This document shows, in pieces, positions 6,522-26,936 of a stretch of DNA of 64,000 bases. This DNA is from Firmicutes bacterium HGW-Firmicutes-7 (GTDB lineage: Bacteria; Bacillota; Clostridia; Lachnospirales; Vallitaleaceae). The stretch covers positions 124,001 to 188,000 of the forward strand of contig PGZO01000004.1 of NCBI GenBank assembly GCA_002841375.1. Reading direction: 5' to 3'. Every line of letters starts with the position of its first letter. Positions within the stretch are counted from its first letter, which is position 1. The notes under the pieces were generated by a model. That model ran no database searches, was not told where the DNA came from, and saw only the letters and a list, made by a program, of their open reading frames with translations. The translations under genes were made by a program, and so were the position numbers.

Positions 6522-6533
6522 AGGGGGATAAAC

Positions 6534-7601: not shown

Positions 7602-7629
7602 CATTAAAAAACTTAAAGGAGATTCTATT

Positions 7630-8697: not shown

Positions 8698-8708
8698 AAG
8701 GAGGCAAC

Positions 8709-9361: not shown

Positions 9362-9928
9362 ATGAGTAATGATTTATATGAAATATTAGAAAATAGTCCA
9401 ATTATAGCTGGAATAAAAGATGATAAAGGTTTAAATACAGTATTAACATCTGATTGTGAAATCGTTTTTATCCTATATGGCAACGTATTAAATATCAGTG
9501 ACATTGTGCAAAAACTAAAAGATCATGGGAAAATAACATTTATTGATGTTGATCTTATTGACGGCTTTTCAAATAAAGAAATCGTTATTCAATACTTAAA
9601 AGAACGAACTCAAGCGGATGGGATTTTAAGTGCAAAAGCATCTATGATTAAGGCGGCAAAAGTACATGGATTTTTAACTGTGCATAGATTCTTCTTGATA
9701 GACTCATTTTCATTTCATAATCTTGATAAGCAAATACAAATTTCACAACCAGATTGTATAGAAATACTACCAGGCGCTATGCCAAAGGTAATTTCATGGG
9801 TTATCGAGAAAGTTAAATTGCCAGTTATTGCTGGAGGATTAGTTTGTGAGAAAGACGATGTTGTTGCAGCACTGAAAGCAGGAGCTACGGCTATTTCTTC
9901 AACAAATATTGAGGTATGGTCTTTGTAA
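9362..9928 (+). CDS. ygcP: GlpP-family antiterminator, YgcP-like
   Basis: GlpP proteins are TIM-barrel-like RNA-acting regulators that, in Bacillus, bind glycerol-3-phosphate and let RNA polymerase read through a leader terminator. The 188 residues show the family signatures: SPIIAGIKDDKGL at the N-terminus, ITFIDVDLIDGFSNKE, DGILSAKASMIKAAK, TVHRFFLIDS, CIEILPGAMPKVI and PVIAGGLV near the C-terminus. No glycerol genes are nearby. Its neighbours are the relatives of E. coli ygcU, ygcW and ygcE, and the E. coli cluster contains the GlpP-like gene ygcP, so I read it as the cluster's own regulator. The ligand is unknown; the phosphorylated product of the YgcE-type kinase is an inference. It follows cobU by 89 bases with a TATAAT at 9314 and RBS TGGAGG. 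Confidence 0.85.
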   Translation: MSNDLYEILENSPIIAGIKDDKGLNTVLTSDCEIVFILYGNVLNISDIVQKLKDHGKITFIDVDLIDGFSNKEIVIQYLKERTQADGILSAKASMIKAAKVHGFLTVHRFFLIDSFSFHNLDKQIQISQPDCIEILPGAMPKVISWVIEKVKLPVIAGGLVCEKDDVVAALKAGATAISSTNIEVWSL

Positions 9929-9965
9929 ATGATTTTGATAAATATTGTCAGGTTTATGATATGAC

Positions 9966-10008
9966 CGGGGCTGCTTCAAATAGAAGTTCATTCTATGAGG
10001 CAGCCCCG
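9966..10008. terminator. Bidirectional intrinsic terminator between ygcP and BCCT gene
   Basis: A nine-base GC-rich inverted repeat, CGGGGCTGC and GCAGCCCCG, is extended by TTC/GAG pairs around a 20-base loop. It lies between the convergent ygcP and bcct1 genes. The downstream T tract on the plus strand is weak (ATTGTTATT). Confidence 0.8.
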
Positions 10009-10026
10009 ATTGTTATTAGAAAAAGT

Positions 10027-11580
10027 TTATGCCTTTCTGTCAGACTGTGAATATGCATCAAACTTTTTAGGTTTACCCATAATATAGATCAAAGATATAA
10101 GGCTCAAAATGCCTAGGAACAGAGCGGGAAATCCTCCTAAATAGGAAAGCATTCTAATTCCATCTATTCCAAGGGTAGAGATGAAAATTAATGCAACAGC
10201 ACCAACAATAATGCCCCAAGTAACTTTGATATATAGCGGTGCTTCTTGCCCACCGTCAGTAATACCAGTTGTACAAATACTCGCCATCGCATTTGTAGTT
10301 GAATCTGTTGCAGTAATAAATGAAATAAGCACAGCAAGTAAATAAATTCCAATTAATATTCCCGAAAATGGAAGGCTACCTAGAACGGCATATCCAGCAG
10401 CAGCAGAGCCTTGTTCATTCATAATTGTAAGGATATCTACTTTTCCAGTCATCTGTAAATGAATTGCTGTGCCACCAAGAACTGCCATCCATACGGCACT
10501 AAAAGCACTAGGAACTAGAAAGTTCATTGTAATGATTTCTTTTACTGTGTAGCCATACGCGATTCTAGCCAGAAACACCGCGGATACAGGTGCCCAAGCC
10601 ATCCAATTAGACCAATAGAAAGTCGTCCAACCTGATGCCCAGCCATCATTTGATGCGGCACCTGTAAATAAGGCTTTGTTAAAAATCCCTGATAAAAATC
10701 CTCCAAAGGATTCAGTACCTAAGCTAAACATGTATACGGTAGGTCCAAGAAGAATAAGCGCTGCAATAATAATATAGTACAGATATACATTTAAATCTGA
10801 TAATATTCTGATTCCTTTGAATAATCCTGTACCAGAAGAGATAATAAAAGCAATGGTTCCACATATGGTGATGATAATCCATAAGCTTTTATTGTTATCA
10901 ATGCCAAATAAGGCATTAATTCCACCGCCCATATTCATAACAGCAGTACCAAAGGATGCTGAAATAGCTGCGGCTACTGCGAATAAAATTATTGCATCTA
11001 CGATAACATCAAACTTATGTTGATTGCGGTTACCGATAATAGGTGATATCTGAGAACCAACACTAAAGGGCCTTTTCATATTATAATAAGCAAATGCAAA
11101 AACAATTGTGGGCACTGCGTAAAATGCATAGGGTATAAATGTCCAGTGGAGGAATAAGGTTTCCATAGCAAACTTGGCTGCAGCGGGAGACATGGGTTCA
11201 ATTCCTAAAGACGTTGGGGGATACGCAAGATGCCAGATTGGCTCAGCCGTTCCCCAGAATAAAATTCCTGCAGCAATGGTTGTACAGAGTGTTACTGCAA
11301 ACCATGATGATTTTTTTAACAATGGTTTAGCATTTGGACCACCTATTCTTACGTTACCCAGTGGTGAAAAATATGTTGCTGTAATGACTAGTAAGCAAGC
11401 GACCCCTGCCAAACTAAACATCCAACCACATTGTAAAGTCATAAAATCCTTAGCTAAAGTTGTGATTTTAAGAAAAGATTCATAGTTAATAAAGTTTAGA
11501 ATAATTGCGATGATCAGCAATATAAATGCCGGAAAAAAGACAATGGGTTTAATTCGATTCACTCCAGATTTTGATTTCAT
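10027..11580 (-). CDS. BCCT-family transporter (first copy), altered substrate site
   Basis: This is a 517-residue polytopic carrier of the betaine/carnitine/choline (BCCT) family. The start is the ATG at 11580 behind GGGAGGAAATT. The family's TM8 tryptophan region is present as FYWSNWMAW (residues 321-329) followed by PVSAVFLARI, and TM4 has HWTFIPYAFY (145-154). Compared from memory with BetP, one Trp of the usual AWW pair is Asn (N325), the second TM4 Trp is Tyr (Y151), and the glycine-rich GxGxG stretch reads TIAAG (101-105). The substrate is therefore probably not ordinary glycine betaine. It is divergent from ygcU, shares its leader architecture, and is closely similar to the carrier at 19176-20747. 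Confidence 0.9.
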   Translation of the reverse strand: MKSKSGVNRIKPIVFFPAFILLIIAIILNFINYESFLKITTLAKDFMTLQCGWMFSLAGVACLLVITATYFSPLGNVRIGGPNAKPLLKKSSWFAVTLCTTIAAGILFWGTAEPIWHLAYPPTSLGIEPMSPAAAKFAMETLFLHWTFIPYAFYAVPTIVFAFAYYNMKRPFSVGSQISPIIGNRNQHKFDVIVDAIILFAVAAAISASFGTAVMNMGGGINALFGIDNNKSLWIIITICGTIAFIISSGTGLFKGIRILSDLNVYLYYIIIAALILLGPTVYMFSLGTESFGGFLSGIFNKALFTGAASNDGWASGWTTFYWSNWMAWAPVSAVFLARIAYGYTVKEIITMNFLVPSAFSAVWMAVLGGTAIHLQMTGKVDILTIMNEQGSAAAGYAVLGSLPFSGILIGIYLLAVLISFITATDSTTNAMASICTTGITDGGQEAPLYIKVTWGIIVGAVALIFISTLGIDGIRMLSYLGGFPALFLGILSLISLIYIMGKPKKFDAYSQSDRKA

Positions 11581-11701
11581 AATTTCCTCCCAAGTATGTA
11601 ATTTAAATAACAATAACAAGAAAATCGGCTGCGCCGAGTTAAAATCCTCGTTACACATCTGCCGCTTTTCTAATTACTTATGCAGAACTTTCCTAGTAAA
11701 C

Positions 11702-11747
11702 AAAAAAGAAGAAAAAAGCAGACTCCACTCGTGGAGTCGCTTTTCTC
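11702..11747 (-). terminator. Leader terminator (attenuator) of the first BCCT gene
   Basis: On the minus strand a GACTCCAC / GTGGAGTC stem with a two-base loop is extended by AGAAAAGC and GCTTTTTTCT arms, then followed by T tracts (TTTTTTCTTCTTTTTT on the transcript). It lies between the promoter at 11773-11801 and the start codon at 11580, so it acts before the gene. Its 5' arm begins GCAGAAGAGAAAAG, almost the same as in the divergent ygcU leader. Confidence 0.82.
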
Positions 11748-11772
11748 TTCTGCTCTGTTAGCAACTAGACTA

Positions 11773-11801
11773 AGTTTAGTGTACAAAAGGGATAAAGTCA
11801 A
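11773..11801 (-). promoter_or_regulatory. Promoter of the first BCCT gene
   Basis: On the minus strand TTGACT and TAAACT are separated by 17 bases. The predicted transcript start is about 25 bases upstream of the attenuator stem, leaving almost no room for another leader structure. Confidence 0.6.
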
Positions 11802-11960
11802 TGGGCAATAACCATAAATAATAAAACAAGAACTAGTAAAATCTACTAAGAGTGTGAAAAAATACAGTGTTAGTAAGAGGAAGGTTATATAGAAAATACA
11901 TATAATCATCTCATATATTATCTGAAACATATATAAAATTGCAGCATCGAAAAAAAACTA

Positions 11961-11989
11961 TTGACATTTAGTAAAACTCTTTATATAAT
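11961..11989 (+). promoter_or_regulatory. Promoter of the ygcU operon
   Basis: A consensus TTGACA and TATAAT are separated by exactly 17 bases. Transcription would begin near 11996, only about 12 bases before the leader terminator. Between this promoter and that of the divergent transporter (11802-11960) I see only AT-rich sequence without a clear operator. Confidence 0.85.
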
Positions 11990-12007
11990 GTACGTAATTA
12001 CTAGTGC

Positions 12008-12068
12008 AGAGAGAAAAGTAATTTCCTACGGGGATTTCCTGTAGAAATTTACTTTTCTCTCTTTTTTT
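12008..12068 (+). terminator. Leader terminator (attenuator) of the ygcU operon
   Basis: A 22-base stem with two mismatches (AGAGAGAAAAGTAA on the 5' side, TTACTTTTCTCTCT on the 3' side) closes an 11-base loop and is followed by seven Ts. It lies directly after the promoter and about 105 bases before the ygcU start, so most transcripts should stop here unless an antiterminator acts. The rest of the leader, 12069-12173, shows no further clear structure apart from the RBS AAGGAG. Confidence 0.87.
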
Positions 12069-12173
12069 GTGCAGGTAATTTTTTTATATGCTCATTTATT
12101 AAATGGGTACATAACCTAGAACCTAGTAATGGGTTCAATCAATATCGTATTAAATTAAGGAGTATCATTAATT

Positions 12174-13619
12174 ATGAAAATTACAAGAGAACAAATCGTA
12201 GAAAACCTAATGAATATTGTTGGAGAAGATAGTGTTATTACAGATGAACAAGTTTTAAAAACAAGCAGTCATGATCGTTTTAGAAAATATGAGGATATTA
12301 ATGGCGTATATACTCAACCTATTCCAGCTGCGGTAGTTAAGGTCAAAAGCACAGACGAGGTGGCGCAAGTATTAAAATTTATGAACGAAAACCAACTAAA
12401 TGTAGTTCCAAGAACTGGCGCTTCTGCTACGGAAGGTGGTCTAGAAACAGCATTAGAAAATTCAGTTGTAGTTGATGGATCTGATATGAATAAAATCATC
12501 AAAATTGATGTATATAACATGTTAGTCACAGCTCAATGTGGTGTTTCTTTAGAGGTACTTGAAGATAAATTGCGTGAGCAAGGATATACAACAGGTCATT
12601 CGCCACAATCAAAACCGCTTGCTCAAATGGGTGGCTTGGTAGCTACAAGAAGTATCGGTCAGTTTTCAACGCTATATGGAGGAATTGAAGACATGCTTGT
12701 TGGGGTTGAAGCTGTTTTTCCAAATGGGAATATAACTAGAATTAAGAATGTTCCAAGACGTGCGGCGGGGCCAGATATTAGACATGTCATCATAGGAAGT
12801 GAAGGTGCCCTATGTTTTATAACAGAAGTAACAGTCAAAATTTTTAAATATATGCCAGAAAACAATTTACTATATGGATATACACTAGATAATATGAAGA
12901 CAGGTTTTGAAATTCTTCGTGAAGTTATGATTAATGGCTATAAACCATCAGTTGCACGGTTATATGATCCAGAAGATGGAGATTATCATTTTTCTCATTT
13001 TGCAGAAGGTAAATGTGTACTTATATTTATGGCTGAGGGACCAAAAGCCATTGCTGATGCAACTGGAAAAGCCATTGAAGAAATAGTAGCAAAGTATAAA
13101 GAGTGTAAGAAAGTAGATGAAAAGTTTATTCAAGTATGGTTTGATAACTTGAATTGGGATCCAGCTAAGGTTGCTGAAGAGCGGGTTGAAATTGTGGAGA
13201 CACATAATCTTGGTTTTACAACAGAAGTATCAGGTAATTGGGATATTATTAACGAAATCTACGAAGTGTGTATCGAACGAATACGGAATGAAATACCTGA
13301 CATAACATTAATTGGGGGACATTCATCTCATAGCTATTTGAATGGAACAAATATGTACTTTGTCTATTATTATAATTTAGTAAATATTAAGCCAGAAGAA
13401 GAGATTGATAAATATCATAATCCAATTCAAGATATTATTGTTGAGGAAACGATTAGGGCTGGTGGCTCTATGTGCCATCATCATGGTGTAGGGAAACATA
13501 GAACGCATTTTATACAAGAGGAGTATCAATCATCGTATTATATCCTTGAAACTTTAAAAAAATCCTTTGACCCGAATGGAATTATGAATGCTGGAACCAT
13601 CATTCCATTAAACAAATAA
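12174..13619 (+). CDS. ygcU: FAD-binding oxidoreductase, YgcU ortholog
   Basis: This is a 481-residue member of the type 4 FAD-binding oxidoreductase/transferase family (FAD_binding_4 plus C-terminal cap). The PRTGASATEGGLE and KPLAQMGGLVATRSIGQFS segments are the FAD-binding parts. The C-terminal GGSMCHHHGVGKHR (His435-437) is the motif I know from alkyl-dihydroxyacetonephosphate synthase, and FDPNGIMNAGTI ends the fold. It matches my recollection of E. coli YgcU along its whole length, including VPRRAAGPDIRH and GGHSSHSYLNGTNMYFVY. Function is unknown in E. coli. Here it heads an operon with its own ETF pair, which suggests a dehydrogenase that passes electrons to ETF. Confidence 0.9.
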   Translation: MKITREQIVENLMNIVGEDSVITDEQVLKTSSHDRFRKYEDINGVYTQPIPAAVVKVKSTDEVAQVLKFMNENQLNVVPRTGASATEGGLETALENSVVVDGSDMNKIIKIDVYNMLVTAQCGVSLEVLEDKLREQGYTTGHSPQSKPLAQMGGLVATRSIGQFSTLYGGIEDMLVGVEAVFPNGNITRIKNVPRRAAGPDIRHVIIGSEGALCFITEVTVKIFKYMPENNLLYGYTLDNMKTGFEILREVMINGYKPSVARLYDPEDGDYHFSHFAEGKCVLIFMAEGPKAIADATGKAIEEIVAKYKECKKVDEKFIQVWFDNLNWDPAKVAEERVEIVETHNLGFTTEVSGNWDIINEIYEVCIERIRNEIPDITLIGGHSSHSYLNGTNMYFVYYYNLVNIKPEEEIDKYHNPIQDIIVEETIRAGGSMCHHHGVGKHRTHFIQEEYQSSYYILETLKKSFDPNGIMNAGTIIPLNK

Positions 13620-13620
13620 T

Positions 13621-14433
13621 ATGAATATACTCGTATGTTTTAAAAATGTTCCTGATTTAGATGCATTATCAGTAAATGATTGGTTGATCGAAGATCATTT
13701 CCAGGTAGATACAAGTTATGTCAGAACAATGTTAAATCCCTATGATGAAAGCGCGCTTGAACTAACACTAAAATTGGGGGACGCTGAAAAGAATGATGAT
13801 TTTAAATTAACAGCTTTAACAGTTGGAACAAGTCATTTAGATAAAGTATTAAAAACCTTATATGCATTGAAATATGACTTAGGCGTAAGACTAGATTGTA
13901 AATCGGATATTAGATTTAACCCTTGTTTTGTTTCACGAATGATTTGCAATTATGTTAAGAATATAAAAAATCATCAGGTCATTATTTTAGGAAGTCAAAG
14001 TAACGTAGGTGACAATGCAAAAACACCATTATTAGTAGCCGAAGGGCTAGGAATTCCTTGCATTACTTCAGTTATTGGAATCAAGTTAGCAGAACAAAAA
14101 GATTGTCTAAGTATTACGTCTAAAATCGATGATTTGATCATTGAACAAATCGTTAAAGCACCGTTTGTTTTAGCGGTGGGAGATGTCCCAACTTCGTACA
14201 TTAGAGTGCCAACGCTTAAGGATAGAATTCAATACAAGGAAAAAGAGATTAAGGTTTTTACCCTTGAGGATTTAGAAATAAAAGAAAATGATGTTGAAGA
14301 AGAAAACGATACGCAGCTAATTGAATTATCTTATGAAAAGAATGGGAGAAATTGTGTATTTATTCAAGGACATCATTCTTCGGAAAAAGCAAATGTGTTA
14401 TACAAAGAATACTTAATGGAGAGGATAAAATAA
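13621..14433 (+). CDS. ygcR: Electron transfer flavoprotein beta-like subunit, YgcR-like
   Basis: This 270-residue protein has the ETF beta opening MNILVCFKNVPD, followed by MLNPYDESALE and a nucleotide-binding-like ILGSQSNVGDNAKTPLLVAE stretch. It resembles E. coli YgcR as I remember it (the DIRFNPCFVSRMI and TPLLVAEGLGIPC regions). It begins one base after the ygcU stop with no good Shine-Dalgarno sequence, so it is probably translated by coupling. The next gene is the matching alpha-like subunit. The family transfers electrons as an FAD/AMP heterodimer; whether this one binds FAD or AMP at each site cannot be told here. Confidence 0.85.
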   Translation: MNILVCFKNVPDLDALSVNDWLIEDHFQVDTSYVRTMLNPYDESALELTLKLGDAEKNDDFKLTALTVGTSHLDKVLKTLYALKYDLGVRLDCKSDIRFNPCFVSRMICNYVKNIKNHQVIILGSQSNVGDNAKTPLLVAEGLGIPCITSVIGIKLAEQKDCLSITSKIDDLIIEQIVKAPFVLAVGDVPTSYIRVPTLKDRIQYKEKEIKVFTLEDLEIKENDVEEENDTQLIELSYEKNGRNCVFIQGHHSSEKANVLYKEYLMERIK

Positions 14434-15419
14434 TGAAAACTGTAATGATACTTAATGGGTCGGTAAATGCCATATTAAAACAAGCAGAAGAATTAAATAA
14501 TTATTCTATTAAAAATTTTTCGAAAAATTCTTTAATTGAAGCATGGATTTTAACTGACCAGGATGTTAATTTCAATACGATTTCATTTTCTCCTCATATT
14601 AATTGCATTAAATTAGTAAAAGTTAGGACAAAACATGTTGCTGAGGAATATATTAAGGCGATTATCATGTTATATGAAAAATGCAAGCCCGAAATCATGA
14701 TATTTGGTAGTGAAGCGTTTGTTTCGGGTTTGGCTGTTAGAGTAGCTTGCCGTTTAAAGGGGAGTTCTTGTGTAGGTGTAAAAAGGAACCAGTATTTAGA
14801 AAAACATTTTATTGTTGAAAAGATGGTTTATTCAAATAATCTAACTGCTAAATTCATAATGAAAAATATGCCATATTGTATTTCTATTGCAAAAGGATTT
14901 AACCATATGACTGAGCAGTCTTCTATAACGGATGATAGTGAAGCGTATCAGAAACTACCTAATGTTGAAACAGTAACCTTTAAGACTGAGGTAGACACTG
15001 AATGGATTCGATCATTTACATTTGAATTAATAAATACTGAGGAGGGACTAAATACTTCCAAGGTAGTTGTTGCAATAGGAAAAGGTATTGGTAGTAAAGA
15101 AAAAGTAGTTTTGTACGAAAAGTTGGCGGCCCTTATGGAAGGTAAACTAGGGGCTAGTCGTCCAGTAGTGATGAATGCGTGGATGCCTATGGAACGCTTA
15201 ATTGGTGCATCGGGTTTAATTATTGCACCAGAACTATGTGTTGCCATAGGTGTGTCAGGAGCTGCTGCATTTACAGTTGGTATAGAAAAGAGTAAATTTA
15301 TCATTGCAATTAACAAGGATCAAGAAGCACCTATTTTTAAAATAGCAAATGTAGCAATTTGCGCTGATTGTGAAGAGGTTGCACAGGCGCTTATTAATAA
15401 ATTAAATGGAAGAATTTAG
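14433..15419 (+). CDS. ygcQ: Electron transfer flavoprotein alpha-like subunit, YgcQ-like
   Basis: I place the start at the ATG at 14433, which shares a base with the ygcR stop (TAATG), giving 328 residues. The N-terminal domain is divergent. The C-terminal FAD domain is typical: VVVAIGKGIGSKEKV, LGASRPVVMNAWMP, LIIAPELCVAIGVSGAAAFTVG and FIIAINKDQEAPIF. There is no ferredoxin domain, in contrast to the second alpha subunit at 17757. With ygcR it forms the electron acceptor of the YgcU-type flavoprotein. The function of the E. coli counterpart is not known. Confidence 0.87.
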   Translation: MKTVMILNGSVNAILKQAEELNNYSIKNFSKNSLIEAWILTDQDVNFNTISFSPHINCIKLVKVRTKHVAEEYIKAIIMLYEKCKPEIMIFGSEAFVSGLAVRVACRLKGSSCVGVKRNQYLEKHFIVEKMVYSNNLTAKFIMKNMPYCISIAKGFNHMTEQSSITDDSEAYQKLPNVETVTFKTEVDTEWIRSFTFELINTEEGLNTSKVVVAIGKGIGSKEKVVLYEKLAALMEGKLGASRPVVMNAWMPMERLIGASGLIIAPELCVAIGVSGAAAFTVGIEKSKFIIAINKDQEAPIFKIANVAICADCEEVAQALINKLNGRI

Positions 15420-15429
15420 AGGTGAAACA

Positions 15430-16908
15430 ATGGTATCAGAACTAATCAAACCATTTGATACAAGATATGAGGAATATTTAAGAGATGAATCCAAAATGGA
15501 TGGAAAGGCTAGTGGGATTTCATTTCCTCGGACAAAAGAGGAGGTTGTAACAATTGTCAACCAGATGATTAACACTTCAACTTCAATCACCGTCCAAGGG
15601 GGTAAAACTGGTATTTGTGGTGGTGCAGTACCGTCAGAAGGACATATTTTGAATTTATCGTATCTAAATAAAGTGATCGACTCATTTGAAACAGAAAATG
15701 GACGTTTCGTTAAAGTGGAAGCTGGATTGATGTTATCAGAATTACATAAATATCTTAATAAAGTGGATAAAACATATTTTTGGCCTCCAGACCCAACGGA
15801 GGATTCAGCTACAATTGGTGGTATTTTAGCTACAAACGCACAAGGCATATGCAGATATTTTTATGGAGATACAAAACAATATGTTGAGGAAATAAAATTA
15901 ATTGACGGTTATGGAAAAGAAAGAATTATACGTAGAGGTGAACGTATAGTAAATGAGCATAAATGTTTATTAGAAAGTGGAGGAACACTTGTCGTGGATA
16001 CAGCGCTTTTGAAACTGCCTCAAGATATTGATTTGATTGATATTTATTTAGGAAGTGAAGGGATGTATGGCATTATTGTTGAGGCTACGCTTAAATTGAT
16101 TGCAAGGCCTAAAGAAGTTTGGGGTATAAGCTTTTTCTTTGAAGAGCAAGAAAATATTTTTGGTTTTGTAGAGGCATTCATGCATACTTCCTATAATGAA
16201 GATGAAGCAGTAGTGGCTGCAGTGGAATATCTTGATAAAAGCACGCTAAAACACATTCATGTATTAAAGAAAGATGTTACCAAATTAAGAGAACTTCCGG
16301 ATGTAGATGAGAAATTTGTTGGTATGGTATATATAGAATTACATGGCAACCAGGAAGAACATATTGAAATAATAGCAGAAAAGATTATGGAATTAGCGAG
16401 CCATTTTCAAGAGGATGATACTTCAACCTGGGCCTTATCAGGGTTTGAAGAAATAGAAAAACTTAGAGCTTTTAGACATGCAGCACCTGAATCTATGAAT
16501 AGGGCCCTTGATCAAGTTAAATTACTTGATTCTCGTATCATAAAGCTTGCAACAGATATTGCGATGGAAAATATGACGTTTAAAGAACTGGTTACGAAGT
16601 ATCAACAGACGGCGTTGGAAAAAGGTATAAATATTGCTATTCATGGTCACGTAGCAGGGAATCAGTTGCACGTTGATTTACTGCCTGAAAATTATGAAGA
16701 ATATATAACGGGAAAAAAGCTTGTTAAAGATTGGGTGATTTGTGCTGTTAAAAGAGGCGGACAGGCTTTTAGCGAGTATGGTGTTGGAAAAATTAAAAAA
16801 GCGTTATATCAGTTATCATTAAGTGAGGAAGAACTAGGAAATATGCGTCATATCAAAAAAGTCTTTGATACGAATGGTATTTTGAATCCTGGAAATATGT
16901 TGGATTAA
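15430..16908 (+). CDS. FAD-linked oxidase, GlcD/D-lactate dehydrogenase type
   Basis: This 492-residue flavoprotein oxidises 2-hydroxy acids in known relatives (D-lactate, glycolate, D-2-hydroxyglutarate). I chose the ATG at 15430 behind GAGGTGAAACA; an in-frame ATG at 15406 lies inside the previous gene. VQGGKTGICGGAVPS and PPDPTEDSATIGGILATNAQG bind FAD. The usual metal and substrate motifs are changed: HGHVAGNQLHVD replaces the common HGHxGDGNLH, and SEYGVGKIKK has Tyr where relatives have the His of the EHGIG motif. With the next two genes it matches the LctD-LctB-LctC arrangement of electron-bifurcating lactate dehydrogenase. The altered residues argue for a different substrate. Confidence 0.86.
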   Translation: MVSELIKPFDTRYEEYLRDESKMDGKASGISFPRTKEEVVTIVNQMINTSTSITVQGGKTGICGGAVPSEGHILNLSYLNKVIDSFETENGRFVKVEAGLMLSELHKYLNKVDKTYFWPPDPTEDSATIGGILATNAQGICRYFYGDTKQYVEEIKLIDGYGKERIIRRGERIVNEHKCLLESGGTLVVDTALLKLPQDIDLIDIYLGSEGMYGIIVEATLKLIARPKEVWGISFFFEEQENIFGFVEAFMHTSYNEDEAVVAAVEYLDKSTLKHIHVLKKDVTKLRELPDVDEKFVGMVYIELHGNQEEHIEIIAEKIMELASHFQEDDTSTWALSGFEEIEKLRAFRHAAPESMNRALDQVKLLDSRIIKLATDIAMENMTFKELVTKYQQTALEKGINIAIHGHVAGNQLHVDLLPENYEEYITGKKLVKDWVICAVKRGGQAFSEYGVGKIKKALYQLSLSEEELGNMRHIKKVFDTNGILNPGNMLD

Positions 16909-16930
16909 TAAGGATAAAAGAGGTGCTACA

Positions 16931-17722
16931 TTGAAGATTGCAATATGTATCAAACAAGTTCCAGGAAGTAATGAATTAACAATGGATCAGGAGAAAGGCA
17001 TTTTGCAAAGAGAAGATGGGCGTGTAAAGATGAACCCATATGATCTTGTTGCGATTGAAACCGCTTTGCAAATAAAAGAAAAATATAAAGAGGTTGTTAT
17101 TACTTCGTTCTCAATGGGACCTAAGCGTGCTAGGGAGGTTATATTATCAAGTTATGCCATGGGCGTAGATCAAGGTGTACTGATTACAGATCCGAAATTT
17201 ATAGGATCAGATGTATATGCAACCGCATTGACCTTATCAAAAGGAATCTCATTAAATGAGGAATTTGATATCGTTATTTGCGGAAGGCAGACAACTGACG
17301 GTGATACAGGTCAAGTTGGACCTGCAATAGCAGAACATTTGGGAATTCCTCATATTTATGGCGTAATAGCGATTGATAAAATAGAAGAAAAACATATTTT
17401 TCTGTCACAGCAAATAGAAAATAAAAAAATATCACTTAGAGTAAAGATGCCTTGTGTACTTGTAATTTCGAAAGAAGCATATATTCCACGGCTTCCATCT
17501 TTGAAATTGAAACTTGAGGCGAAAAAGAAGAAAATAAAAATCATGTCCTTTGAAGATTTAAATGACTCGGATATAAGAAAATTTGGGCTAGAAGGTTCGC
17601 CAACCCAAGTGGAAAAAATATACTTTCCTAATAAATCTAAAAAAGAAACACTACTATCTGGAAACGCTAATGTTATTGTAGATGCAATCATAGAACGATT
17701 AAAAGGTGAGAAACTTATATAG
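16931..17722 (+). CDS. Electron transfer flavoprotein beta subunit, bifurcating-type (LctB-like)
   Basis: This 263-residue protein starts at a TTG behind AGAGGTGCTACA. It has the classical ETF beta sequence: MKIAICIKQVPGS, KMNPYDLVAIETAL, VICGRQTTDGDTGQVGPAIAEHLGIP and a C-terminal PRLPSLKLKLEAKKK. The TDGDTGQVGP loop binds the second nucleotide, which is FAD in bifurcating ETFs. It is clearly a different subfamily from the YgcR-like protein at 13621, so the operon encodes two distinct ETFs. Confidence 0.9.
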   Translation: MKIAICIKQVPGSNELTMDQEKGILQREDGRVKMNPYDLVAIETALQIKEKYKEVVITSFSMGPKRAREVILSSYAMGVDQGVLITDPKFIGSDVYATALTLSKGISLNEEFDIVICGRQTTDGDTGQVGPAIAEHLGIPHIYGVIAIDKIEEKHIFLSQQIENKKISLRVKMPCVLVISKEAYIPRLPSLKLKLEAKKKKIKIMSFEDLNDSDIRKFGLEGSPTQVEKIYFPNKSKKETLLSGNANVIVDAIIERLKGEKLI

Positions 17723-17756
17723 AGTTGTGCGAATTATAAATAAACGAGGTGATTAC

Positions 17757-18962
17757 TTGTCAGAACTTCAGATTAACGATGAAAAATGTGTTTTATGTAG
17801 GGCGTGCATTAGCGCTTGTCCATTTGGTGCACTTGAAGTAGTTGATAAAAAGTTAGTTGTGGAGGATAACTGTAGCTTATGTGGCGTATGTCTAAACACT
17901 TGCCAGTTTAATGCACTTTGTATTGAAAAGCAAGAGAATGGGTTACTAGATAAAAATAAATGGTCAGATATTTTAGTATTTGTTGAACACAATGAAGGTA
18001 AAATTCAGCCCGTTACATATGAATTAATAGGAAAAGCGCTTAAGTTAATAGAAGGAACTTCATATAAGGTTTACTGCTTGATTGTGGGATATAAAATAAC
18101 AGAACTTGCGAAAGAATTATCCTATTATAATGTTGAGAAAAATTTTATTTATGACCATAAAGCATTTAAGAATTATAGAGAGGATATATTTTGTAACGTT
18201 TTTCAAGACTGCATAAATGTATTAATGCCTGCTATTGTTTTAATAGGTGGGACAGATGTTGGTAAATCAATCGCACCTGCTGTTGCAACAAGTTTTCACT
18301 CGGGGCTCACTGCAGATTGTACAGAACTAATCTTAAATGAAAAATTAGAGCTCGTACAAATAAGACCTGCTTTTGGGGGAAATGTAATGGCTCAAATTGT
18401 AACGCCAAATCATAGGCCTCAATTTGCAACAGTAAGACCCAGTATTATGGAAGAAGCTAATAGAATTAAATCACCAAGAAATAATATTGTGAATTGCAAG
18501 TTAGATGAAAAAAAGCTGGTTTCACAAATAGAGGTACTTAAAGAAAAGCAGATGGAAACGAAAGAAGGTATTCAAGACGCAAAGATTTTGATTGTTGCAG
18601 GACAAGGATTCAAGCGTAAAGAAGATTTGTGGATGGTCGAGGAGCTTGCAATGCTTCTTAATGGTCAAGTAGCTTCGTCAAGAGCCTTAGTTGAGAAAGG
18701 GTGGATGCCTTATGAGAGACAGATTGGGCTATCAGGAAAAACTGTAAAGCCTGAAGCCATAATAACTTGTGGTGTGTCAGGATCAGTACAATTTATGACG
18801 GGAATGAAAACGAGTAAGACGATTATTGCAATAAATATTGATAGTGATTCTCCGATTTTCTCTATTGCCCACCAATCGATTGCGGGAGATATTTATGAAA
18901 TTCTTCCAAAGTTAATTCATCAATTAAAAGAAATAGATAAGCTTGCTAATAACAAGAATTAG
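17757..18962 (+). CDS. Electron transfer flavoprotein alpha subunit with 2[4Fe-4S] ferredoxin domain (LctC-like)
   Basis: I place the start at the TTG at 17757, eight bases after GAGGTG, giving 401 residues; an in-frame GTG at 17706 inside the upstream gene is less likely. Cys11, 14, 17 and 21 and Cys39, 42, 45 and 49 form two ferredoxin-type CxxCxxCxxxC motifs. The rest is a full ETF alpha: VLIGGTDVGKSIAPAVA, LVQIRPAFGGNVMAQI, ASSRALVEKGWMPYERQIG and IIAINIDSDSPIF. Ferredoxin-fused EtfA is the form seen in LctC of the bifurcating lactate dehydrogenase and CarE of caffeyl-CoA reductase. The gene closes the second oxidase/ETF module. Confidence 0.9.
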   Translation: MSELQINDEKCVLCRACISACPFGALEVVDKKLVVEDNCSLCGVCLNTCQFNALCIEKQENGLLDKNKWSDILVFVEHNEGKIQPVTYELIGKALKLIEGTSYKVYCLIVGYKITELAKELSYYNVEKNFIYDHKAFKNYREDIFCNVFQDCINVLMPAIVLIGGTDVGKSIAPAVATSFHSGLTADCTELILNEKLELVQIRPAFGGNVMAQIVTPNHRPQFATVRPSIMEEANRIKSPRNNIVNCKLDEKKLVSQIEVLKEKQMETKEGIQDAKILIVAGQGFKRKEDLWMVEELAMLLNGQVASSRALVEKGWMPYERQIGLSGKTVKPEAIITCGVSGSVQFMTGMKTSKTIIAINIDSDSPIFSIAHQSIAGDIYEILPKLIHQLKEIDKLANNKN

Positions 18963-19110
18963 TTTTTTAAGCCCATTCACGTACAAATAGTTTAGCGTTA
19001 AAACAAAATGATTTTGCCTCTCGTTATGTTTTATACAAAGATTATAGAAAGCATCTTAAAGATTGTAAAAATTGTAAGGATGTATGTAGTGGGCTTTTAA
19101 ATAAATTAAC

Positions 19111-19140
19111 ATATAGTCTTCTTACAAAATAAGACTATAT
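19111..19140. promoter_or_regulatory. Perfect inverted repeat upstream of the second BCCT gene
   Basis: Arms ATATAGTCTT and AAGACTATAT (10 bases each) flank a 10-base spacer. It lies 36 bases before the transporter start. There is no T tract after it, so it is more likely an operator or an mRNA-processing or stabilising stem than a terminator. The rest of the 213-base gap shows no convincing promoter. Confidence 0.5.
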
Positions 19141-19175
19141 TGGCTACTAACTAACTATATTTGGGAGGTTATAAA

Positions 19176-20747
19176 ATGAGTACAAAAACAAAAAGCAATA
19201 TTAGGCCATTTGTATTTTTTCCTGCATTTATTTTATTGCTCGTAACAATCATTTTGAACTTTGTAAATCCTGAGGCCTTTTTGACAGTTACTACAGCTGC
19301 AAAAGACTTTATGACAGTTCAATGTGGATGGATGTTTAGTTTAGCGGGGGTTGCATGCTTAATTGTAGTCATCTTAGCTTATTTTTCTCCATTAGGTGAG
19401 ATAAGGGTAGGTGGCGCTAATGCAAAACCATTACTAAAAAAAGGATCATGGTTTGCAATTACCTTAACGACAACTATTGCAGCTGGAATTATGTTTTGGG
19501 GAACGGCTGAACCACTTTGGCATCTTGCTTATCCCCCGATAGGTATTGAACCAATGTCTCCAGCAGCAGCTAAGTTCGCGATGGAAACCTTATTCCTTCA
19601 CTGGACATTTGTTCCTTATGCATTCTATACGGTTCCGACAATTGTATTTGCTTTTGCATACTATAATATGAAAAAGCCTTTCAGTGTAGGTTCACAGATT
19701 TCTCCTGTTCTTGGAAATCGTAATCAAAAGAAAATTGATATTTGGGTAGATGCAATTATCCTATTTGCTATAGGTACTGGAATAGCATCATCCTTTGCAA
19801 CTGCAGTGATGAATATGGGTGGTGGGATCAATGCATTAACAGGCATCAATAGCGATAAGACTTTATATATTATTATTACAATTGCGGCAACAGCATTGTT
19901 TACCTTTGCTTCCGGCTCTGGTTTATTTAAAGGAATCAAATTCCTAGCGAAGTTTAATGTATATTTATATTATATCATTATAGCAGCGTTAGTAATTTTA
20001 GGCCCTACAGTCTATATGTTTAGCTTGGGTACAGAATCCTTTGGTGGTTTCTTATCAGGTATATTTAGTAAGGCCTTGTTTACGGGTGCGGCTGCGTCAG
20101 ATTCATGGGCGTCTGGTTGGACAACCTTTTATTGGACAAACTGGATGGCATGGGCACCAGTTACGGCAGTATTTTTAGCGAGAATTTCATATGGATATAA
20201 AATTAAAGAAATTATTACGATGAACTTTTTAATTCCATCAGCTTTTGGTGCTGTTTGGATGACAATTGTAGGTGGAACTGCAATTAATTTCCAAATGACT
20301 GGAAGAGTTGACCTGATAGCAATAATGAATGAACAAGGCTCTGGAGCAGCGGGATATGCTATCCTTAATGAGTTGCCACTAGCTGGGGTATTAATGGTGA
20401 TTTATCTTATTGCAGTAATTGTATCGTTTGCGACTGCGACAGATTCAACAACCAATGCGATGGCAAGTATTTGTACAACTGGAATTACAGAAGCAGATCA
20501 AGAAGCACCTTTATATCTCAAGGTTTTATGGGGAGCTATTATTGGCTTAATCGCTGTTGTATTCTTAGCAACCTTTGGAGTAGATGGGATCAAGATGTTG
20601 TCCTACCTCGGCGGCTTCCCTGCACTTATTTTAGGTGTTTTAAGTCTGATTTCACTAGTATTCATTATGAATAAGCCAAAGAAATATGATATTGTTGACA
20701 ATGGGGAGATTGTTTCCCAAGAGGAAAGTGAAAGTACTGTTCTTTAA
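19176..20747 (+). CDS. BCCT-family transporter (second copy), altered substrate site
   Basis: This 523-residue carrier starts at the ATG behind GGGAGGTTATAAA. It is closely similar to the transporter at 10027-11580 throughout, with the same variant motifs: TTIAAGIMFWGTAEP, HWTFVPYAFY and FYWTNWMAWAPVTAVFLARI. The two copies presumably carry the same or closely related compounds, perhaps as an exchanger pair or with different affinities; this is inference. In the E. coli ygc cluster the equivalent positions hold MFS carriers (YgcS, YqcE). Downstream come ygcW and ygcE on the same strand. Confidence 0.92.
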   Translation: MSTKTKSNIRPFVFFPAFILLLVTIILNFVNPEAFLTVTTAAKDFMTVQCGWMFSLAGVACLIVVILAYFSPLGEIRVGGANAKPLLKKGSWFAITLTTTIAAGIMFWGTAEPLWHLAYPPIGIEPMSPAAAKFAMETLFLHWTFVPYAFYTVPTIVFAFAYYNMKKPFSVGSQISPVLGNRNQKKIDIWVDAIILFAIGTGIASSFATAVMNMGGGINALTGINSDKTLYIIITIAATALFTFASGSGLFKGIKFLAKFNVYLYYIIIAALVILGPTVYMFSLGTESFGGFLSGIFSKALFTGAAASDSWASGWTTFYWTNWMAWAPVTAVFLARISYGYKIKEIITMNFLIPSAFGAVWMTIVGGTAINFQMTGRVDLIAIMNEQGSGAAGYAILNELPLAGVLMVIYLIAVIVSFATATDSTTNAMASICTTGITEADQEAPLYLKVLWGAIIGLIAVVFLATFGVDGIKMLSYLGGFPALILGVLSLISLVFIMNKPKKYDIVDNGEIVSQEESESTVL

Positions 20748-20785
20748 AAATATAAAAAATATAAAAATAAAAGGAGATATTAACA

Positions 20786-21562
20786 ATGAATATAGTAGAT
20801 TTTTCAATGGATTTCTTTTCTTTAAAAGGGTTAAATGCTATTGTAACTGGAGGTAATACCGGATTAGGACAAGCATTTGCATTAGCTTTAGCAAAAGGAG
20901 GTGCAAATCTGTTTATTCCAAGTATTATGGAAGATGATGGCACAACAAAAACACTAATAGAAAATGAAGGCGTTAAAATGGCGTTTATGAAAATTGATAT
21001 AACTGAAGAAGGTGCAGCAAAAAAGGTTATTGATGGTTGCGTTGATGCTTTTGGTTCTGTTGATATTTTAGTAAATAGTGCAGGTATTTGTAAGATTGCA
21101 TCGGTGCAAGAATTTGGAAGAGCAGAATGGGATCCAATGATCAGCATCAATCTTACTGCAGCCTTTGAATTAAGCTACCAGGCAGCACAAAAAATGATTC
21201 CACAAAGAAGTGGAAAAATAATTAACATATGTTCTATGTTTTCATTTTTAGGAGGTCAATGGTCACCAGCCTATGCTGCAACCAAGCATGGTTTAGCAGG
21301 GTTTACAAAAGCATATTGTGATGAGCTGGCTCAATATAATATCCAAGTAAATGGTATTGCACCAGGGTATTATGCAACTGAAATTACAACAAAAACAAGA
21401 AGTAATCCTGAAACAAATAAAAAGGTACTTGACCATATTCCTGCAAACCGCTGGGGAGAAACGCAAGATTTAATGGGTACAACCGTTTTCTTAGCAAGTA
21501 GAGCTTCTGATTATGTAAATGGTCATATATTAGCTGTAGATGGCGGCTATTTAGTAAGGTAA
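20786..21562 (+). CDS. ygcW: Short-chain dehydrogenase/reductase, YgcW ortholog
   Basis: This 258-residue classical SDR has VTGGNTGLGQAFA as the NAD(P)-binding glycine motif, LVNSAGIC in place of NNAG, the catalytic Ser in ICSMFSFLGG, and YAATKHGLAGFTKAYCDEL with the YxxxK pair. VNGIAPGYYATEITT and the ASDYVNGHILAVDGGYLVR end are as in KduD and its relative YgcW. It agrees with remembered E. coli YgcW nearly throughout, including the N-terminal FSMDFFSLKG. KduD oxidises or reduces a sugar-acid ketone, so the substrate may be a small polyol acid; that is inference. RBS AAAAGGAGATA. Confidence 0.92.
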   Translation: MNIVDFSMDFFSLKGLNAIVTGGNTGLGQAFALALAKGGANLFIPSIMEDDGTTKTLIENEGVKMAFMKIDITEEGAAKKVIDGCVDAFGSVDILVNSAGICKIASVQEFGRAEWDPMISINLTAAFELSYQAAQKMIPQRSGKIINICSMFSFLGGQWSPAYAATKHGLAGFTKAYCDELAQYNIQVNGIAPGYYATEITTKTRSNPETNKKVLDHIPANRWGETQDLMGTTVFLASRASDYVNGHILAVDGGYLVR

Positions 21563-21577
21563 TTTACGTTTTACTTT

Positions 21578-21613
21578 CTATATGCGTTTATTCAATGGAA
21601 TAAATGCATATAG
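21578..21613. other. Strong hairpin between ygcW and ygcE
   Basis: Two 16-base arms (CTATATGCGTTTATTC and GAATAAATGCATATAG) pair fully as RNA, with one G-U, around a four-base loop. No T tract follows, so this may be a processing or stability element that separates the dehydrogenase from the kinase message. Confidence 0.55.
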
Positions 21614-21695
21614 ATTAACTTACTGATAAATAGAGTCATCACTTAAAATTTACGCTGAAAGGCATAACTATAAAAGAAAGGTATTGGTGGTTGTA

Positions 21696-23129
21696 ATGAG
21701 TAAAAAATATATTATAGGTGTTGATGGTGGGTCTCAGAGTTCAAAGGTTGTAATATTTGATCTTGAAGGGAATATTGTTTGTGAAGGTAAGGAAGATTTG
21801 CAACCTATGAGCTTACCTGAGCCAGGAATTGTAGAACATCCTAATGATGATCTTTGGGATTCTATCGTAATAGCCAGTAAAAAAGCCATGGAACGCTTTT
21901 CAGGAAATGTGGAAGATATTATTGGATTAGGCTTATGTACCATACGTTTTTGTAGAGCCTTATTAAAGGAAGATGGTACTTTAGCATCACCTGTTATGAG
22001 CTGGATGGATACAAGAGTATCTAAACCTTATGAGCACTTGAATCCTTCGGTAAAGTATGTTACGACTACTTCGGGTTATATTGCCCATAGATTTACAGGT
22101 AATTTTAACGATACTGCAGCAAATTATCAAGGTCAATGGCCTATAGATACCGATTCATGGCAATGGAGTGAAGATCCAGCAGTACAAAAGGATTTTAATA
22201 TTCCTCTAGAGATGTTATTTAACTTGCAAATGCCAGGAACGGTTTTAGGTGAGGTTACAGAAGCAGCATGTAAAGCAACCGGTATACCTATGGGTATTCC
22301 TGTAGTTGCAACAGCGAATGATAAGGCAGTTGAAGCTTTAGGTGCTGGATCATTATCTCAAAACACTGCGCTTGTTTCTTTAGGAACTTATATTGCAGCG
22401 ATGGTACACGGACATGAAAATCCAAAAAATACAACAAATTTTTGGACAAACTTTGCTTCTATTCCTGATAATTATTTGTATGAGAGCTATGGAATTCGAA
22501 GAGGTATGTGGACAGTTAGCTGGATTAAAAATCTTTTGGGAGATGAGATTGCTCTAAAAGCTGAAGCTTTAGGTATTCCAGCTGAGGAATATTTGAACAG
22601 AGAGGCAGAAAAGGTTCCAGCAGGTAGTAATGGGTTAATGACTGTTTTAGATTGGCTTGCTCCAGCACATTTACCCTTTAAAAAAGGCTTAATGATTGGC
22701 TTTGATGGCCGTCATACTGGAGCGCATATATATAGGTCTATATTAGAGGCAATTGCTTTAACGATGAAAAATCATGCAGATGCAATGTGCGCTGAATTAG
22801 ATATAGAGCTAGAAAATATTATTATTTCAGGAGGAGGCTCTAATAGTGCATTGTTTATGCAAATATTCGCTGATGTGTTTGGCGTTTCAGCTTCAAGAAA
22901 TGAGGTCAATGGTTCTGCGAGTTTAGGTTCAGCAATCTGTGCCGCAGTTGCAGTAGGAGCGTACGATAATTATGAAATTGCTATAGAAAAAATGGTACGA
23001 ATTAGAGACACCTTCAGCCCAATCAAAGAGAACACAGACTTATATAAAAGAATGAATAATGAAGTTTTTAAAGATATTACTGTCTATACAGATGAAGTCT
23101 TAAAAAAGTCATATCCAATTTTCGGTTAA
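21696..23129 (+). CDS. ygcE: FGGY-family carbohydrate kinase, YgcE ortholog
   Basis: This is a 477-residue kinase of the xylulokinase/glycerol kinase superfamily. The ATG at 21696 follows GGTGG; an upstream TTG is less likely. YIIGVDGGSQSSKVVIFDLEGN is the phosphate-binding opening, VSLGTYIAAMVHG and IIISGGGSNSALFMQIFADVF complete the ATP site. It matches remembered E. coli YgcE, including LQPM, SWMDTRVSKPYEH, YQGQWPID and YGIRRGMWTVSW. YgcE has no assigned substrate to my knowledge. As the last metabolic gene of the operon it probably phosphorylates the imported compound or its oxidised or reduced form, and the product may be the ligand of the GlpP-type regulator. Confidence 0.9.
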   Translation: MSKKYIIGVDGGSQSSKVVIFDLEGNIVCEGKEDLQPMSLPEPGIVEHPNDDLWDSIVIASKKAMERFSGNVEDIIGLGLCTIRFCRALLKEDGTLASPVMSWMDTRVSKPYEHLNPSVKYVTTTSGYIAHRFTGNFNDTAANYQGQWPIDTDSWQWSEDPAVQKDFNIPLEMLFNLQMPGTVLGEVTEAACKATGIPMGIPVVATANDKAVEALGAGSLSQNTALVSLGTYIAAMVHGHENPKNTTNFWTNFASIPDNYLYESYGIRRGMWTVSWIKNLLGDEIALKAEALGIPAEEYLNREAEKVPAGSNGLMTVLDWLAPAHLPFKKGLMIGFDGRHTGAHIYRSILEAIALTMKNHADAMCAELDIELENIIISGGGSNSALFMQIFADVFGVSASRNEVNGSASLGSAICAAVAVGAYDNYEIAIEKMVRIRDTFSPIKENTDLYKRMNNEVFKDITVYTDEVLKKSYPIFG

Positions 23130-23189
23130 TTAAAAATAAAGAATTCTGCAACTTCTTTATTCAATTTGCACGAATTGGGGAGGATTAAA

Positions 23190-25292
23190 ATGAAAACATC
23201 TATTCGATTTAGATTAATCAGTTATTTTATCTTGGTTATATTAATGACATCAATACCTATAGGTGTTATTGCGTATACGAGCACCTATAACTCTATTAAA
23301 ACAAGTATGTATGACTCTGCAAATAAAGAAATGATTCAGGTTGACAATGGAATTTCTTACATATTTAAGAATATTACTGAAAACAATAAATATCTTGCAT
23401 CAAATAGCCAAATTAAAGAAATTGATGAAAGCATCGTAGCACTTTTTAACCTTGATCATATAAAGATACCAAAATTGTTTTCAAAAGAATTACCTGGATT
23501 GCACGGGAAGATTTATGATGAATTGGAGAGATATGCTGATTCACACCCTGATTCGGCTTATGTTTATTTAGGCACAAAATGGGGTGGCTATATTCAGTGG
23601 CCAGATGGACTAGAGGTCAACGATTATGACCCAAGAACAAGACAGTGGTACGAGCAAGCTGCGAATCATTCAGATGAAGTGATAATTTCTGATCCATATA
23701 TGGCAAGTGATGCTTCCCAGTCTATTATCGTAAGCACTACAAGTAGCATTAAAAACGCAAAAGGAGAAGTTGTGGGCGTATTAGGGCTTGATGTTAGCTT
23801 AACGACACTATCACAGATAATTAAAGAAATTAAAATTGGTAATACCGGATATGTATTCTTATATACAAAAGATGGAACGATTATAGCACATCATAATCCA
23901 GATGTTGTATTTAAGAATATCAACGATCTATCAAATAATGGTGTAAACGATGAAGAAAACAATCAATTAATTCAATATGTTATAAAGGATTATGCGAAAC
24001 TCCTTAGTGATGAAAACGCATCTTTTGAAACAATCGTGGATGGCGTTCCCTGTTTAGTATCCGTAATCACTTCCCCCTCAACTGGATGGAAGATGGCTTC
24101 AATTGTAACCAAAAATGAATTATTAGAAAAATCTAATCAAGTAGGATTGGTGATTATATTGATTACTATAGCTATTCTGATTTTAGCTTTAGTAATCGTT
24201 TGGTTTGTAACAAAGGTGATCACAACACCATTATTAAAAATAAAACAATTTGCTCAGAGATTGGAAAACTATGATTTTAGTAATCCTATATCAATCTCTA
24301 GAAAAGATGAATTTGGGCAAACAGGTGATGCCTTAAACATAGCCCAGAATAATGTGAGACAATTAATAACTTCAATCATAAGTGATTCATCTGAAATAAG
24401 TGCTTCAAGTCAAGAGCTAGCTGCTTCTACTGAAGAGGTAACCTCACAATTTGAGACCATCAATTCATCAACAAAAGAAATAAGTTCTGGCGTTACACAA
24501 ACAAGTGAAATGGCAAAGGATATTTCAAATTCTGCTCAAAAAGTGAATCTAAGTTGTAATGTCCTTTCAGAAAAAGCAATTGATGGTACATCTGAATCGG
24601 TAAAGATTCAAGATAGAGCTTTAGATATCCAAAGGAAAAGTAAGGCAGCGTTAGAAGAAACTAAAAAGGTGTACTTAGATCGAGAAAATAAAATTATTAA
24701 ATCAATAGAAGCAGGGAAAGTTGTTAACGAAATTAAGGTTATGGCAGATACAATTGCAAGCATTGCAGCCCAAACAAATCTATTAGCTCTTAATGCTGCA
24801 ATTGAGGCGGCAAGGGCAGGAGAACAAGGAAAGGGTTTTGCTGTTGTAGCTGATGAAGTAAAAACACTTGCGGAACAAGCCTCACAAGCGGTGGATAAGG
24901 TTAAGTATACAATAGTAAAAGTACAAGATGTATTTAAGAGTTTGTCAGATAATAGTAATGAGTTATTGAAGTTTATGAATGAAAACGTTACGTTGCAATT
25001 TGAAGCATTTAGTGAAGTGGGACAACAATATCAAATAGATGCAGAATTTGTTAATACCATGTCTGAAGAACTAGCTAGGATGGCGAATGAAATCACTAAA
25101 ACAATCAATGAAGTTAGTAATTCAGCTCAAAGTATGGCGAATATGTCACAGAATTCATCAGAGCGTACGAATGAAATCCAAGTGAGCGTTGATGAATCCA
25201 CTCAGGCAATGGAACAAGTAGCAAAAACGGCACAATTTCAGGCGGAACTGGCCCAAGCCCTAAGTGCACAAATTCAAAAATTCAAACTATAG
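23190..25292 (+). CDS. Methyl-accepting chemotaxis protein with dCache sensor domain
   Basis: This 700-residue chemoreceptor starts at the ATG behind GGGGAGGATTAAA. TM1 is near residues 10-30, an extracellular double Cache domain spans about 40-305, TM2 is near 315-340, HAMP follows, and the signalling tip is [34 protein letters not shown]. The Cache pocket has [12 protein letters not shown] and GLDVS, which resemble the amino-acid/amine recognition motif of dCache_1 domains. DPYMASDA lacks the acidic residue usually found two positions after that Tyr. It follows ygcE by 60 bases and is probably co-transcribed, so it may detect the compound that the operon consumes. Confidence 0.9.
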
Positions 25293-26058: not shown

Positions 26059-26084
26059 AATTCACCTTTTTAGGCCTTTCTTTA

Positions 26085-26804: not shown

Positions 26805-26856
26805 TGTAAGCTCCTTTTTTGTTTCAAGGTGTTTTTGTAAGGAATTGTTTAATACT

Positions 26857-26885
26857 ATTATATAGTCTAACATCTGTTTCGGCAA
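26857..26885 (-). promoter_or_regulatory. Promoter of cobS-cobC
   Basis: On the minus strand TTGCCG and TATAAT are separated by 17 bases, about 50 bases before the cobS start codon. There is no room for a cobalamin riboswitch between this promoter and the gene. Confidence 0.65.
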
Positions 26886-26890
26886 GGTTA

Positions 26891-26924: not shown

Positions 26925-26936
26925 GGCTTTAGAATA

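Follow-up and report, generated by a model that had tools for sequence, protein, structure and literature searches.

What does the ygc cluster of Escherichia coli do? The question is raised by positions 9362-23129 of a 64,000-nucleotide stretch (the window) of contig PGZO01000004.1 from Firmicutes bacterium HGW-Firmicutes-7, where genes of the ygcP, ygcU, ygcW and ygcE types lie together with genes for a YgcR/YgcQ-like electron-transfer flavoprotein (ETF) pair; coordinates are positions in the window unless another record is named. We think it fairly probable that the ygc genes form an operon for the breakdown of glyceryl-N,N,N-trimethylhomoserine (GTS), or of a compound very close to it. GTS is the deacylated glycerol-ether headgroup of diacylglyceryl-N,N,N-trimethylhomoserine (DGTS), a phosphorus-free betaine lipid found in membranes of algae, fungi and phosphate-starved bacteria. 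GTS itself is known to be formed by a lyso-DGTS lipase (PMC11711679). We also lean, if slightly, towards the cluster being an undescribed bacterial route, in which the glycerol ether of the betaine lipid would be broken by reversed ether-lipid chemistry under a YgcP leader-RNA regulon of Clostridia, Bacilli and E. coli. Searches of the open-licence literature, with subscription papers and preprints outside their scope, found no relevant paper on ygc function and nothing relevant on betaine-lipid catabolism or on MttB demethylases with trimethylhomoserine.

A Firmicute counterpart of the E. coli ygc cluster

Window proteins were compared by BLASTP with the E. coli K-12 proteins from NC_000913 2892657-2903374. 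The GlpP-family antiterminator (GlpP) was 55% identical to YgcP over 184 amino acids, the flavoprotein (U) 70% identical to YgcU over 484, the short-chain dehydrogenase/reductase (SDR) 76% identical to YgcW over 253, and the FGGY kinase 57% identical to YgcE over 476. The E. coli paralogues tested were far more distant (GlcD 20%, KduD 44%, IdnO 40%, LsrK 25%, GlpK 25% and XylB 23%). EtfB1 and EtfA1 were 31% identical to YgcR and YgcQ, respectively, and a search of the window genome at E<=1e-100 gave one U only. These results confirm that the window locus is a true counterpart of the E. coli cluster.

A sequence-only reading of this DNA had described a Firmicute form of the ygc cluster, with these gene types together and with full-length agreement of flavoprotein, SDR and kinase with E. 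coli. Each gene was found where that reading had placed it, and the agreement extends to 70%, 76% and 57% identity. It had named mere family similarity and a lack of conserved clustering beforehand as findings that would count against it; the matches instead reach 55-76% compared with 20-44% for the paralogues, and clustering is kept in many phyla. A scan for U using one genome per species yielded 79 loci from Clostridia, Bacilli, Negativicutes, Actinomycetota, Pseudomonadota and many enteric genera. Among 86 loci, an SDR adjoined U in 78, a kinase in 75 and GlpP in 69, which is far above chance.

Within Bacillota the gene set is rare (2 of ~397 genomes drawn, window genome excluded), and it is missing from most genomes of the window's own family. 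Where a family member has a close form, it is a 58% version: the SDR, kinase and ETF genes are kept, the neighbouring BCCT carrier is 70-75% identical to BCCT1, a YqcE homologue is often present, and an RpiR/SIS-domain regulator replaces GlpP. The occurrence of both regulator types suggests that a phosphorylated intermediate is sensed. A quick U tree was weakly resolved, and transfer directions were not drawn from it. We rejected one Planctomycetota cluster, from a metagenome-assembled genome, since positions 1-3466 of the contig (L077) are virtually the same as E. coli K-12 DNA, which marks the contig start as chimera or contamination. The gene order in a Chryseobacterium record (L078) looks enterobacterial.

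The E. coli cluster (ygcNOP / ygcQRSUW / yqcE-ygcE) shares with the window orthologous U, W, E and P, a distant ETF pair and the same leader hairpins. However, its carriers are the major facilitator superfamily (MFS) proteins YgcS and YqcE, whereas the window locus has BCCT carriers, and it lacks the Ox2-EtfB2-EtfA2 genes. Conversely, ygcN, ygcO, ygcS and yqcE are not among the window genes. As judged by sequence, Ox2 and EtfB2/EtfA2 are an added, separate LctBCD-like set: as in the NAD/ferredoxin lactate dehydrogenase LctBCD of Acetobacterium, Ox2 is LctD-like, EtfB2 is LctB-like and EtfA2 has a ferredoxin domain, but the set is embedded in a ygc-type operon. Ox2 was considered as a second YgcU and rejected, being of LctD/GlcD type and ~20% identical to YgcU.

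The AGPS-like YgcU, the carriers and a shared leader RNA

Alkyl-dihydroxyacetone-phosphate synthase (alkyl-DHAP synthase; AGPS or ADPS) makes the glycerol ether of ether lipids. Searched against the PDB, the U family profile matched AGPS with an E value of 1.2e-58 (next family, 2.6e-37), and the top 29 Foldseek PDB matches of the predicted U structure (predicted local distance difference test score, 81) were all AGPS. By sequence and predicted fold, YgcU is closest to AGPS. U H435-H437 align with AGPS His615-617 (mammalian numbering) in the HHHGVGK loop, and R262 and Y395 align with columns altered in the deposited AGPS mutants Arg419His (R419H) and Tyr578Phe (Y578F), so that the motif and the catalytic Arg and Tyr positions are common to both; all five residues are invariant in 85/85 U family members. 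The corresponding residues of Dictyostelium AGPS are important for catalysis, and in AGPS the DHAP carbon becomes attached to the flavin as an adduct and has its oxygen substituent swapped (PMC3509576). U is ~25% identical to AGPS, is shorter at the N-terminus and, unlike AGPS, is encoded in a catabolic operon together with an ETF partner, where it is proposed to break an ether and not to make one. Because its context is catabolic, our claim is limited to U probably working like AGPS in reverse.

Outside enterics, some ygc clusters encode BCCT transporters and others Opu-type ABC importers, the latter with OpuAC binding proteins. The solved structures nearest to these BCCT proteins are DddT, a trimethylamine transporter and BetP. 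Both carrier types are systems for quaternary-ammonium or related onium compounds. The sequence-only reading had expected the BCCT carriers, among other differences from E. coli, to narrow the choice of substrates, and had listed hydroxylated betaines among the candidates; the direction was right, although the substrate itself was not named. Supported overall, it had overlooked the AGPS-likeness of YgcU, the separateness of the LctBCD-like module and a conserved leader RNA.

In the main operon of the window, a strong terminator-type hairpin lies between a sigma-70 promoter and U. The leader sequence, GAGAGAAAAGUAAYUUCC...GGAAGUNUGCUUUUCUCUC-U(n), recurs 5' of ygc operons in other loci. A covariance model (R1) was built from 16 copies, among them one from locus L040 and none from E. 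coli; 97.5% of the pair cells in its alignment are standard, and four pairs have changed on both sides. In Firmicutes, R1 matches preceded genes for W, U, BCCT and YqcE, as well as one mttB-PanB-Opu-racemase operon (L040, whose copy is itself part of the model). No strong R1 sites other than the two at this locus, before U and before BCCT1, occur in the window genome as a whole. In E. coli K-12, which served as an independent check, R1 lies 21 nt 5' of the annotated ygcW start and 24 nt 5' of yqcE, and of 5,426 complete genomes of the species 5,018 contain the ygcW-yqcE leader region. Nothing in Rfam matched the leader region, which places the leader outside known families.

In Bacillus subtilis, GlpP mediates glycerol-3-phosphate antitermination at promoter-proximal terminator leaders. 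The window locus likewise combines a GlpP-family protein (PF04309) with promoter-proximal terminator leaders ending in T-tails; unlike the Bacillus system, it has no glycerol genes, and ygc and betaine genes would be controlled. Given the regulator's family and its co-occurrence with the leader, R1 is presumably the target of YgcP/GlpP. Its position before carriers, enzymes and the L040 demethylation module leads us to propose one YgcP/GlpP regulon.

A candidate route for the betaine-lipid headgroup

Genes beside U in other genomes bear on the substrate. Three MttB-bearing genomes were chosen for U and their neighbours were read afterwards. In these lineages (Sporomusa, Geosporobacter and Syntrophomonadaceae), MttB-type demethylases and an octopine-dehydrogenase-family protein (ODH) lie ~9-11 kb from U, variously with a corrinoid protein, an MtrH-like protein, PanB (several copies in Sporomusa) and a racemase of the proline-racemase or Asp/Glu-racemase family. 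As an independent check, 299 genomes of the same phylum were surveyed: ODH occurred in five and U in two, and, the starting genome aside, the sole U genome was one of the four other ODH genomes. This genome, which brings the lineages with such a module to four, carries the co-directional array GlpP-SDR-kinase-U-EtfB1-EtfA1-Ox2-Opu-ODH-MttB-proline racemase-MttC-MtrH. Anaerobes thus have MttB, MttC and MtrH-like genes adjoining ygc, as in betaine demethylation of the MtgB/MtpB/MtcB type, but here accompanied by an opine-type dehydrogenase, a racemase and PanB. An opine-type dehydrogenase requires an alpha-amine and PanB a 2-keto-4-hydroxy acid, and the set of MttB, racemase and ODH, with or without PanB, fits N-trimethylhomoserine. 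PanB would act on 4-hydroxy-2-oxobutanoate; a literature search found no paper on this pairing, so the link leans on general knowledge.

In Cohnella, after the ygc genes and a two-component pair, comes a second module, made up of an Opu importer, an aspartase-family lyase, an aldehyde dehydrogenase resembling betaine aldehyde dehydrogenase and a Zn-dependent alcohol dehydrogenase. The lyase and the two dehydrogenases recur as a triad in nine further loci of the same order. Opu and an MR_MLE-family protein accompany it in eight of these, and one triad adjoins a 56% YgcS homologue. The triad fits conversion of homoserine betaine to aspartate betaine and then to fumarate and trimethylamine. Three unrelated racemase/epimerase-type families (proline racemase, Asp/Glu racemase and MR_MLE) recur with the modules.

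GTS is the common denominator of the AGPS-like U, the glycerol-kinase-like FGGY kinase, the SDR, the glycerol-phosphate-type regulator, the quaternary-ammonium carriers and the two homoserine-betaine-type modules. From gene families and context, we infer the following substrate, order of steps, effector, ETF role and product fate. BCCT carriers would import GTS, the YgcE kinase would phosphorylate its free glycerol CH2OH to a glycerol-3-phosphate-like ester, and the YgcW SDR would oxidize C2 to give an alkyl-DHAP analogue. YgcU would then cleave the ether, with water replacing the fatty alcohol in a reversal of the AGPS reaction, to release homoserine betaine and a triose phosphate. The latter would be DHAP if YgcU is hydrolytic, or phospho-hydroxypyruvaldehyde if it is oxidative and passes electrons to EtfAB1. 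Electrons in E. coli may flow from YgcU through YgcRQ and YgcNO to quinone, consistent with the ETF-QO ubiquinone-binding domain of YgcN. YgcP would sense the glycerol-phosphate-like intermediate and antiterminate the leaders before the U, W and transporter operons.

Homoserine betaine would be exported, or degraded where neighbouring modules are present. With MttB, a racemase and an opine-type dehydrogenase, demethylation, inversion at the alpha carbon and oxidative removal of the methylated amine would give 4-hydroxy-2-oxobutanoate, which PanB could split by retro-hydroxymethylation into pyruvate and a C1 unit. In Cohnella-type clusters, the alcohol dehydrogenase, aldehyde dehydrogenase and aspartase-like lyase would yield fumarate and trimethylamine. 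CaiT exchanges carnitine for butyrobetaine; for the window organism, which has two BCCT carriers and no MttB, a similar exchange of GTS for homoserine betaine is a reasonable guess. The window genome has one PanB gene, on another contig.

Several observations weigh against the GTS assignment. The window genome has no PF06253 (MttB) match. AGPS itself requires no electron acceptor, so that the ETF partner of U implies an altered reaction or electrons from another step, and the comparison of R337 with Dictyostelium R447 meets an alignment gap. U gave no match in the triad genomes and in three ODH genomes without ygc, in a query that had no positive control; the ODH/MttB and lyase modules can thus stand alone, and may serve homoserine betaine or another betaine by themselves. 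Finally, Enterobacteria have MFS carriers and neither BCCT nor Opu, so the enteric substrate could differ.

This last point belongs with the alternative that survives best, to which we give a minor but real chance: that the core U/W/E pathway applies the same kinase, SDR and AGPS-like logic to another glycerol-containing ether or amine, such as the headgroup of diacylglycerylhydroxymethyl-N,N,N-trimethyl-beta-alanine (DGTA), another glyceryl-betaine or, in enterics, a non-quaternary glyceryl ether. The AGPS-like U, the glycerol-kinase-like YgcE and the GlpP leader logic require just a glyceryl moiety. However, the beta-alanine skeleton of DGTA suits neither the alpha-amine requirement of the opine-type dehydrogenase nor the 2-keto-4-hydroxy acid requirement of PanB, whereas homoserine fits both, and conversion of homoserine to aspartate betaine accords with the Cohnella route. 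It is improbable that the cluster serves a sugar acid or polyol, as existing annotations would have it (deoxygluconate dehydrogenase, sugar kinase and glycolate-oxidase-like flavoprotein). The SDR is indeed nearest to KduD and gluconate dehydrogenases, and the kinase is of the FGGY family, but the cluster has no aldolase, isomerase or dehydratase, U is AGPS-like and not GlcD-like, and quaternary-ammonium carriers and betaine modules lie alongside. A carnitine, choline or glycine-betaine pathway, with kinase and SDR acting on the betaine itself, would account for the BCCT and Opu carriers and the MttB genes but is very improbable, as an FGGY kinase, a GlpP-type (glycerol-3-phosphate) regulator and an AGPS-like enzyme are foreign to the known routes and PanB and the racemases are left unexplained.

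Locus layout, variant clusters and implications

Table 1 Features of the ygc-type locus, in window coordinates
Feature	Position	Strand	Evidence
GlpP-family antiterminator, YgcP orthologue, proposed cluster regulator	9362..9928	+	PF04309, 214 bits; 55% identity to YgcP
BCCT-family transporter 1 (BCCT1)	10027..11658	-	PF02028; 70-75% identity to BCCT genes at ygc clusters of other clostridia; true start probably within the open reading frame, below 11658
BCCT1 leader terminator/antiterminator hairpin	11700..11755	-	R1 49 bits, E 8e-8; fold z -6.5
Main-operon consensus sigma-70 promoter, TTGACA-17-TATAAT	11961..11989	+	12/12 match
U leader terminator/antiterminator hairpin, T7 tail, proposed GlpP/YgcP target	12004..12070	+	R1 65.6 bits; fold z -7.5
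U, AGPS-like FAD enzyme orthologous to YgcU, proposed to cleave the ether	12174..13619	+	70% identity to YgcU
EtfB1, YgcR-like	13621..14433	+	PF01012; 31% identity to YgcR
EtfA1, YgcQ-like	14433..15419	+	PF00766; 31% identity to YgcQ
Ox2, LctD/GlcD-type 2-hydroxyacid dehydrogenase-like flavoprotein	15406..16908	+	Top PDB match LctD of the Ldh-Etf complex, 9e-27
EtfB2, LctB-like	16931..17722	+	PF01012
EtfA2, LctC-like, N-terminal ferredoxin domain	17706..18962	+	Fer4, ETF and ETF_alpha
BCCT-family transporter 2 (BCCT2)	19161..20747	+	Likely start 19173; top PDB matches DddT, trimethylamine transporter, BetP
SDR, YgcW orthologue, proposed C2 oxidation of phosphorylated glyceryl ether	20786..21562	+	76% to YgcW vs 44% to KduD
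FGGY kinase, YgcE orthologue, proposed glycerol-moiety phosphorylation	21684..23129	+	57% to YgcE; LsrK and glycerol kinases closest among solved structures; likely start 21696
dCache methyl-accepting chemotaxis protein, directly 3' of the kinase	23166..25292	+	PF02743, PF00015

The dCache chemotaxis receptor after the kinase is a possible substrate sensor. Cobalamin biosynthesis genes (CobD/CbiB, CobT- and CobU-like, CobS-like and others) occupy both flanks (268-9272 and 25459-28911), and GlpP starts 90 bp past the last upstream one; the genome nonetheless lacks MttB, as stated above.

Variant clusters were observed in several lineages. In Caproiciproducens-type genomes, the gene after the YgcE kinase encodes a SurE-family phosphatase (L118 5867-6643, L119 860-1630 and L117 6621-7454), which suggests a dephosphorylation step in this variant. 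In marine Gammaproteobacteria (L034 6975-8261 and L065 11789-13147), W-E-U is followed by an FAD_oxidored (PF12831) protein in place of the ETF genes, perhaps as an alternative electron acceptor for U. Erwinia/Pantoea-type clusters (L049, L053, L055 and L057; 1-4400) have an aldehyde dehydrogenase resembling succinate-semialdehyde dehydrogenase and an aldo-keto reductase adjoining YgcS, with a homologue of the formaldehyde-activating enzyme Fae beside YgcS in most; moeAB/gsi-type genes nearby were judged by eye to be unrelated chromosomal neighbours. In one further array (L129 7285-17049), the U paralogue is distant (43%) and its companions are EtfBA, an Ox2 homologue, an FAD/NAD oxidoreductase, a DUF1667-like small protein and an FGGY kinase; this is possibly a related glycerol or ether pathway.

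The proposal names a substrate, orders the reactions and points to an RNA switch, which makes the ygc question directly testable; GTS can be prepared from commercial DGTS. If the proposal is true, it would give a function to an orphan cluster that most E. coli strains carry and that is still unassigned in this best-studied of bacteria, and it would show how betaine lipids of algae, fungi and bacteria can be turned into pyruvate or trimethylamine. DGTS would also gain the sink that has been missing for it, and would be a possible source of the methylamines of anoxic sediments and guts.

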